Assembly: GCA_947499145.1 (NCBI GenBank)
Contig: CANMNB010000012.1
Coordinates: forward strand, 146,228-210,227
Direction: 5' to 3'
Length of the DNA stretch: 64,000 nucleotides
Source: an uncultured Arachnia sp.
GTDB taxonomy: Bacteria; Actinomycetota; Actinomycetes; Propionibacteriales; Propionibacteriaceae
Shown: one piece after another, positions 30,449 to 33,120 of the stretch
Numbering within the stretch: the stretch's first letter is position 1
Layout: each line of letters opens with the position of its first letter
Made by a program: the position numbers and the translations under genes
The notes under the pieces: generated by a model
What the model was told of the DNA's origin: nothing
The model's database searches: none
The model's input: the letters and a program-made list of their open reading frames with translations, nothing else

Positions 30449-31438
30449 ATGCAGATCCGCACCCACAGCGTCGGCCACGACGCCACCCTCACCGCCTACG
30501 TCCAGGAACCCAGCGCGGAGCTCGGCAACGCCGCGACCCGACCGGCCGTCCTCGTGCTGCCAGGCGGCGGATACTTCTACACCTCCGACCGCGAAGCCGA
30601 GCCCATCGCGCTGGCCTACCTCGCCGAGGGGTTCAACGCCTTCGTTCTCCGCTACGCCGTCGGCGCGGAGTCGCCGTTCGAGAAGTCCTTCGACGACGCC
30701 AAGGCGGCGCTCGCCTGGATCCGCGGGAACGCGGCCGACCTGCTCATCGACCCGACGAAGGTGGCAGCCGTCGGCTTCTCGGCCGGCGGGCACCTGGCCG
30801 CCAGCCTCGCCACGGCCGCGGAGGACAAGCCCGACGCCCTCGTCGTCGGCTACCCCGTCACACTCGAGGAGTTCGGCCCGCCCGTGGGCAAGGAACTGCT
30901 CGACGTCCCCAGCCACGTCACCGCCGACACGCCTCCCACGTTCCTGTTCAGCACCTGCGACGACACGGTGGTGCCGATCCGCAACTCCCTCGCCTTCCTC
31001 AGCGCCCTCGCCGAGGCGGGGGTGCCGTTCGAGTCCCACATCTATCTCCTCGGCCCCCACGGCCTCAGCCTGTCCACGGCGGCGACGGCGAACGGTCGGG
31101 GCGAGATGGTGGAGCGCTCCGTCGCCCAGTGGTTCCGCGACTCCGTCCGCTTCCTCCTCACCGTGTTCGGGGACTTCGCCGTCGACGGCGCCCCGGAGAC
31201 CTTCGACACCCTGCTCCGGCGCCGCCGGCCCGGCCTCGACATGCCCATCGGACGACTCCTCGACGACGACCGCGCGGCCGAGGTGCTGCGTCGCCATGCC
31301 CCCGACGTCGTCGCCGCTGCGGAGAGCGACCGGTTCACCCGGGGAATCTCCATCCGGCAGGTAATGGATTACCGTCCCAATGCGCTGGCCCCGGAGGCCG
31401 TCGCTTCCCTGGAGCGAGAACTGGCCAACTTGGCCTGA
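30449..31438 (+). CDS. Alpha/beta hydrolase (esterase/acetyl-esterase type)
   Basis: VLVLPGGGYFYTSDREAEP, VAAVGFSAGGHLAASLA, DDTVVP.. Confidence 0.85.
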   Translation: MQIRTHSVGHDATLTAYVQEPSAELGNAATRPAVLVLPGGGYFYTSDREAEPIALAYLAEGFNAFVLRYAVGAESPFEKSFDDAKAALAWIRGNAADLLIDPTKVAAVGFSAGGHLAASLATAAEDKPDALVVGYPVTLEEFGPPVGKELLDVPSHVTADTPPTFLFSTCDDTVVPIRNSLAFLSALAEAGVPFESHIYLLGPHGLSLSTAATANGRGEMVERSVAQWFRDSVRFLLTVFGDFAVDGAPETFDTLLRRRRPGLDMPIGRLLDDDRAAEVLRRHAPDVVAAAESDRFTRGISIRQVMDYRPNALAPEAVASLERELANLA

Positions 31439-31454
31439 CAAGCAGCGCAAGACT

Positions 31455-31856
31455 GGGCTGGCGCGCGGCACCGGCCTGGCCGTCCCCGCCGCGTCCGAGC
31501 ATGCCGAGCTCGCGGCCGAGTTCAACGCCTTCGCCAAGCTCTCCCTCCCCGCGAACGTCGCGGTCTGGGAAGTTCTCGGCTTCGATCCGGTCAACATGTC
31601 GGTCTGGGAGGACAAGGAAGTCACTCACAACGAGGACAACAAGTTCAACCAGTACTTCACGACCAACCTGTTCGACGTCCTCAACGAGGTCAAGGGCGGC
31701 ATCGGGCACTTCCAGTCCTTCGCCAACCCCAACCTGCCCCCCGTGGACAACTGGTTCCGCACCGTCACTCTCAACGAGATCTACGAGAACGGCACCCCGG
31801 TCCAGGAGGCCCTCGACCAGGCCCAGTCGGACCTGGAGAACGAGATCGGCGAGTGA
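31455..31856 (+). pseudogene. 3' remnant of an AraN-like sugar ABC substrate-binding protein
   Basis: In-frame GTGLAVPAASEHAELAAEFNAFAKLS...VWEVLGFDPVNMSVWEDKEV...NKFNQYFTTNLFDVLN...TVTLNEIYENGTPVQEALDQAQSDLENEI resembles only an SBP C-terminus; no signal peptide or N-terminal lobe. Confidence 0.7.
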
Positions 31857-31889: not shown

Positions 31890-31926
31890 GCGGCCGAGAC
31901 GGGCTCAACTCGTCTCGGCCGCTCTC
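31890..31926 (+). terminator. Rho-independent terminator-like hairpin
   Basis: GCGGCCGAGACG-GGCTCAACT-CGTCTCGGCCGC followed by TCTCTCT. Confidence 0.7.
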
Positions 31927-31941
31927 TCTGTCCCCCGACTC

Positions 31942-33099
31942 TTACCGGCCCCACGGGAGGTTGCGGCGCCAGCGCAGGAGGAACGGTCTGGTGACGTCCT
32001 CGTGCTCCGCGCCCGTGAGCGTCTGGACGCGGACGGTGAGGACGTCGAACTCGGCGGGCTTCAGGGTCGCGACGAAGACGGTGAGCACCAGGCGTCCGGC
32101 TTCGAGGTCGGCCTGGGTCATCGTCTCGCCGAGCCCACAGCGCACGCCGAAGGCCTCCTCCGGTGTGGCCCCCTGCAGGGCTCCGCGCCGCCAAAGGTCG
32201 AGAAGGAAGTTCCCGGCGAGCATCCGCACCCGGGCCCACAACGGCGCCTCGTTGGGCTCGAAGACCGCGAACTCCAGTCCGGCCGCCAGGGATCCGCTGA
32301 TGTGGTCGACGAGCCGTCGCATGGCCAGATACCGGCGTGGGGGCTCCGCACTGTCGACAGCGGCGAGCGTCCGCGCCCCCCACACCCTCAGGCCCCGGCC
32401 GGGGAACTCCCGGATCGGGTTGACCCCGTGCTCGGTCAGAAGTTGGCCCGCCGCCTCGTCGATGGTCTCGGTCAGTGCGTCAATTCCGTGCAACGCAACG
32501 TTCGCGGGCGCCTTCCACACGCCACGCGTCGCGTCGGTGTGAGCGATGCTCCCCGCGACAGCTCCCGACGGCGGGATTTCCACCCCACCCATCACCAGCC
32601 AGGGATGGTAGACAGCGGCCCGCTCCCGATGGGGACCCGCCTGCGCGGCCGCGGCGCGCGCGTCGTTGCCCCACGGCCCAAGGGGCAGATCCAGGAGCAG
32701 CACGGCTCGACGCTCCGCACACCAGTTCAGCGCATGGGCCACGGGGAGGGAGTGGACGGCTGTCAGGCCGGGGACTACCAGGACCGTCACGCCGGCCCCG
32801 TCGAGGGCGTGCAGCCCGCCCACACCGGCGGTGGGGACGAGCAGCTCCGGCGCCGGTCCGGCGGCGCGGACCACCGTCGCGCTGGTGCCGCCGTTGGCGA
32901 AGAACAGATCCACGGCGTGCCCCAGGGGCTGGTCCCCATCCAGGCTGGGTCCGAACGTGGCGTGGTACTCCGACGGGCTGGTCACCACCACCGGCGTGTC
33001 CACCGGCCCCTGACTGCAGGCGCCGACGAAGCCCGTCACGGACGTGGGCAACGGCTGGATCGCCGCGCCCGCAGACAACACCTCCTCGATGTACGGCAT
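31942..33099 (-). CDS. Phage tail sheath / contractile injection system sheath protein
   Basis: PTSVTGFVGACSQGPVDTPVVVTSPSEYHATFG N-terminus and sheath C-terminal domain ...EFAVFEPNEAPLWARVRMLAGNFLLDLWRRGALQGATPEEAFGVRCGLGETMTQADLEAGRLVLTVFVATLKPAEFDVL. Confidence 0.88.
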   Translation of the reverse strand: MPYIEEVLSAGAAIQPLPTSVTGFVGACSQGPVDTPVVVTSPSEYHATFGPSLDGDQPLGHAVDLFFANGGTSATVVRAAGPAPELLVPTAGVGGLHALDGAGVTVLVVPGLTAVHSLPVAHALNWCAERRAVLLLDLPLGPWGNDARAAAAQAGPHRERAAVYHPWLVMGGVEIPPSGAVAGSIAHTDATRGVWKAPANVALHGIDALTETIDEAAGQLLTEHGVNPIREFPGRGLRVWGARTLAAVDSAEPPRRYLAMRRLVDHISGSLAAGLEFAVFEPNEAPLWARVRMLAGNFLLDLWRRGALQGATPEEAFGVRCGLGETMTQADLEAGRLVLTVFVATLKPAEFDVLTVRVQTLTGAEHEDVTRPFLLRWRRNLPWGR

Positions 33100-33120
33100 C
33101 TCCTCACCTTGTCCGAGGCG

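Follow-up and report, generated by a model that had tools for sequence, protein, structure and literature searches.

Contractile sheaths are usually regarded as parts that are meaningful only together with a tube and a baseplate. The window analysed here, a stretch of 64,000 nucleotides from an uncultured Arachnia sp., carries what looks like a lone sheath gene, and the question is why it is there. If a lone sheath is kept by selection, an injection machine would have been turned into a cellular protein, and the action of a sheath by itself could be studied in a simple system of one gene. In related species the same gene also stands alone and is kept under selection, which points to a role of its own for the sleeve protein; a single injection-machine part kept after the machine was lost is a real and somewhat surprising case.

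The frame was confirmed as an intact, full-length contractile sheath gene with an ATG start (Table 1), in agreement with the preliminary description made from the letters of the window. The product matched Phage_sheath_1 (PF04984) above the cut-off (E = 5e-14, 52.9 bits versus 31.4) and Phage_sheath_1C below it (E = 3e-4), and gave PHROG tail sheath matches at 9e-52 and 2e-44. PDB sequence matches included 9ezm (4e-57), the S. coelicolor CIS sheath 8bky (1e-56), Pvc2 (2e-48) and Afp2 (9e-43). The AF2 model had a pLDDT of 91.3 and a pTM of 0.89, with pLDDT above 90 along most of the core and a stretch below 50 only in residues 365–385. Foldseek matches to CIS sheaths (prob 1.00, TM 0.7–0.8) were headed by that of S. 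coelicolor (E = 3.5e-28), followed by the PVC, AFP and Anabaena CIS sheaths, so the structure prediction suggested earlier as a check returned a sheath fold. The label “phage-type” was right about the sheath and wrong about the type: the product belongs with the short eCIS sheaths like Afp2 and Pvc2 and not with those of phages.

Table 1 Features of the sheath gene and its surroundings in the window.
Feature	Position	Strand	Basis or remark
5′-truncated sugar-ABC solute-binding protein (SBP) remnant	31380..31856	+	SBP_bac_8 C-terminal match E 0.003, below cut-off
GC-rich hairpin, ~12 bp stem	31890..31925	.	Between SBP remnant and sheath stop
Solitary eCIS-type contractile sheath gene, 385 aa, intact	31942..33099	-	Pfam, PDB, PHROG, AF2, Foldseek
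Variable low-confidence C-terminal tail, residues 360–385	31945..32022	-	pLDDT, alignment, domains
Sheath core, ~residues 4–359	32023..33090	-	Pfam coordinates and model confidence
Subtilisin-like sheath domain, residues 94–244, then C-terminal sheath domain			Pfam; both within core
Purine-rich ribosome-binding-site-like stretch AAGGTGAGGAG	33100..33110	-	Directly 5′ of ATG; sequence

Afp2 and Pvc2 (antifeeding prophage and Photorhabdus virulence cassette) share this short architecture (354–355 aa versus a core of ~360 aa here) but are encoded in complete eCIS operons. The S. coelicolor CIS sheath (PDB 8bky, 9gts, 9gtp), the best structural match, has the same fold at 34–38% identity. It belongs to an actinobacterial, cytoplasmic injection system of the eCIS lineage, where the 534-aa sheath is part of a complete machine with tube and baseplate whose function needs the membrane protein CisA (PMC10066040, PMC12237407). 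Beside it, the window sheath is the shorter protein, is missing the “PGV” segment of the N-terminal arm and had no partner that was detected. It retains 73 of the 82 columns conserved among sheaths encoded in clusters. Among the arms linking neighbouring subunits, the conserved C-terminal strand (PAEF) is present, and the N-terminal arm falls ~7 residues short of its cluster-borne counterparts, with no “PGV” ahead of YVEE. As a protein this is an ordinary eCIS sheath; what is unusual is that it was retained alone.

The neighbours were confirmed as an alpha/beta hydrolase (previously called an esterase), a truncated SBP and a divergent GH36 alpha-galactosidase. The SBP remnant next to the sheath gene is a probable rearrangement scar or junction. 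The hairpin (-33.2 kcal/mol, z -3.4; absent from the list of the consensus scan) is probably a terminator shared by the convergent SBP remnant and sheath gene. The SBP remnant also overlaps the end of the upstream esterase frame. An ATPase remnant adjoining the window sheath gene was looked for and none was found.

The absence of virion genes, noted before for the window, held for the whole genome (G000; 2.88 Mb, 26 contigs, completeness 100%) in profile searches with four Pfam probes: tube (PF06841, Phage_T4_gp19), Baseplate_J (PF04865), GPW_gp25 (PF04965) and spike (PF04717, Phage_base_V). The tube, gp25 and spike profiles matched the positive controls, i.e., the cluster-bearing congeners G010 and G022 and the more distant G055, at 1e-16 or better. 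In G000 and the three genomes with related solitary sheaths described below (G021, G030 and G400), the tube profile had no match, and the gp25 and spike profiles had no convincing one. The best matches in G000 were E 0.22 for gp25 (12.8 bits versus a cut-off of 27.2) and E 0.016 for the spike (17.2 bits versus 23.8, in a 1144-aa frame on another contig); Baseplate_J had none in G000, and no convincing second sheath copy was found genome-wide. By these searches, the sheath gene is alone in G000. This leaves very little probability for a CIS that still works in split form, with its remaining genes placed elsewhere or diverged beyond recognition. The number of contigs and the fact that short Afp2-like sheaths are normal in multi-sheath eCIS would fit it, but the genome is complete and profiles that readily found the controls returned nothing convincing. 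The same searches contradict the earlier option that the sheath serves a cluster at a distance.

Orthologs of the gene were present in 2 of the other 39 genus genomes searched, G030 (69% identity) and G021 (67%), and a relative with 58% identity was detected in Ornithinimicrobium cavernae (G400). These four sheaths form one clade (support 1.0), with the next relatives at ~40% identity. The C-terminal tail varies within the clade, being an eCIS AAA+ ATPase fragment in G030 and a cupin domain in O. cavernae, and absent in G021. The G030 gene (L113:16154-17569) is fused in frame to the ATPase fragment, which gave an AAA Pfam match over 73 residues (386–458; E 6e-9), is 59–70% identical to ATPases in eCIS loci, and has Walker B but is missing Walker A. 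With the frame continuing into an eCIS-type ATPase piece, the fusion is a deletion scar, and the sheath once stood inside an eCIS cluster. Phage sheath relatives were at most ~35% identical among the phage records listed; given this and the ATPase scar, the gene is an eCIS descendant and a prophage origin was rejected. For a prophage or R-type tailocin, there was neither a close phage relative among those listed nor a tail gene found in the genome. The earlier idea of a last survivor of a lost prophage thus keeps the lost contractile machine and gives up the prophage. Plasmid and viral collections yielded only relatives below 60% identity. In O. cavernae, the sheath and the cupin form one frame (L003:9851-11428), flanked by genes for a metal P-type ATPase and an APH-type phosphotransferase.

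The genomic context of the gene differed between the species. In G021 and G030 it occupies a common locus (acyl-CoA dehydrogenase, 296-aa gene, sheath, pan genes), and therefore the solitary state is probably older than the split of these two. In G000 it sits at another locus adjoining GH36, and this neighbourhood, proposed for a conservation check in related genomes, turned out not to be conserved. G018 has the G021/G030 locus with the 296-aa gene and with the sheath cleanly absent; given this and the patchy distribution (3/40 genus genomes, G000 included), the sheath gene is dispensable. The 296-aa protein has no Pfam match, and its family (L113:15255-16145, L115:11845-12852, L243:9314-10183) occurs in 8/397 genomes of the order, adjoining the sheath in G030 and G021 and unlinked to one in the others. 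Its overlap with the sheath-bearing congeners had p ~0.003, not corrected for relatedness. As a fixed partner it was rejected, being on another contig in G000 and also present in G018, G014 and G141 without a detected sheath.

The absence of frameshifts had been taken to favour retention, and measures of selection across relatives agreed. The NG86 dN/dS of the G000 sheath was 0.24 versus G030 and 0.29 versus G021, inside the range of neighbouring orthologous genes (0.22–0.47); these values are approximate, with synonymous sites near saturation (4-fold site differences of 0.51–0.55 among the intact frames of the three species). For changes on the G000 lineage, N/S was 0.79 versus a neutral expectation of 2.78, and the choice of sites probably biases this value upward, which makes the estimate conservative. 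In a neutral simulation run to 0.45 substitutions per site, 0/200 frames of the sheath length were stop-free; that the frame stayed open without selection can practically be excluded. Judged from this divergence, the frame appears to be under constraint by purifying selection. The O. cavernae lineage had an N/S of 2.82, not below neutral, an estimate biased by saturation, and some of the selection could predate the loss of the cluster if the losses were independent.

These measurements bear on the possibility that the gene is a decaying relic, the last intact piece of a recently and independently lost eCIS with no present function. Sheath genes do decay in this order: G025 has a truncated remnant with a 114-aa frame (L127; G025:C1:303877-304074) and the sheath match in G246 (L155) is interrupted by a stop. 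The sheath-free G018 locus and the scar fusion in G030 also fit a relic. Against it, the frames are intact in three species despite near-saturated synonymous divergence, the G000-lineage N/S is far below neutral, and the same solitary locus is found in both G021 and G030. We consider a relic unlikely, though still the strongest of the competing explanations.

On balance, we lean towards a retained eCIS sheath, the other parts deleted, that is now a stand-alone gene and probably a self-assembling, polysheath-like oligomer. Among the options of the preliminary description, a domesticated sheath-fold protein is the best supported, with tube-less congeners carrying orthologs, purifying selection and a preserved fold. 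In such a course of events, deletion would have removed the rest of the eCIS cluster and left the sheath gene on its own. Without tube and baseplate, the sheath may associate with itself in the cytoplasm, either as rings or tubes of the contracted type (polysheath) or as short homo-oligomers, and these might serve as a scaffold or as a sequestering polymer or sink. The variable C-terminus (tail, ATPase piece, cupin) could be the place where new parts are attached. The oligomer step takes phage sheaths as its only analogy, and the shortened N-arm counts against it. Lone phage sheath proteins form polysheath, and FV3 gp053 can do so with 25 residues missing from its N-terminus or 100 from its C-terminus (PMC6357053). 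Such polysheaths (T4 gp18, FV3 gp053) are likewise sheaths without tube or baseplate and provide a model for a lone sheath, but they consist of phage proteins, seen when assembly is recombinant or defective, and do not come from a bacterial gene kept for the purpose.

A sheath that polymerises could also act on the machines of others. As a dominant-negative decoy or sink, it would co-polymerise with the sheath subunits of a phage tail, or of a CIS that is resident or belongs to a rival, spoil the assembly and so be a defence factor. The full-length conserved core, the CIS loci in the congeners G010 and G022, and a patchy distribution like that of defence genes are consistent with this. However, no close sheath turned up in a phage (the best among those listed is ~35% identical), no defence-gene neighbours were seen and the idea is purely inferential, which makes it rather improbable.

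Solitary sheaths were not restricted to this clade. In the order sample, a sheath match with E of 1e-30 or better was obtained in 63/397 genomes, and 56 of the 63 also have a tube. The seven tube-less genomes are G000, G021, G030, G003 and G012 (a fragmented assembly of 210 contigs) in this genus, and G246 and G389 elsewhere; the tube-less share is thus 5/7 in this genus versus 2/56 in the rest of the order (Fisher p = 6e-5, without correction for relatedness). Next to the sheath of G389 lies a weak tube-like match, and the sheath systems of G389 and G246 are probably decaying. The single-contig genome G003 encodes a solitary sheath of full length (516 aa; L125:10935-12485) from another lineage, with no tube, gp25 or spike detected genome-wide. 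Two Algoriphagus genomes carry syntenic solitary sheaths (L015:9095-10573 and L043:9098-10573; 88% identical, dN/dS ~0.145), and no gp19 tube was found in either, the tube being the one part covered by this absence in the pair. Like the window gene, the G003 and Algoriphagus sheaths are intact genes without a tube detected in the genome, but they are longer (491–516 aa), belong to other sheath lineages and lie at unrelated loci. We tentatively raise, as a possibility somewhat short of an even chance, that, in Algoriphagus and at least one actinobacterial genus, sheath genes have repeatedly been released from their CIS and have persisted by themselves as bacterial genes that took on a new cellular role; the roles in this reading would be scaffold, sink or fusion partner, e.g., the sheath-cupin.

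Nothing relevant on orphan or solitary sheath genes was found in the open-access literature searched. A published eCIS survey set a minimum of ten core genes per operon (PMC8213781), and therefore single-gene survivors would be missed. The congener G010 carries, besides its cluster, a second, isolated full-length sheath, likewise from a lineage other than that of the window gene (L119:17027-18547). The isolated sheaths of G010 and G003 both lie between housekeeping genes and are 46% identical to each other.
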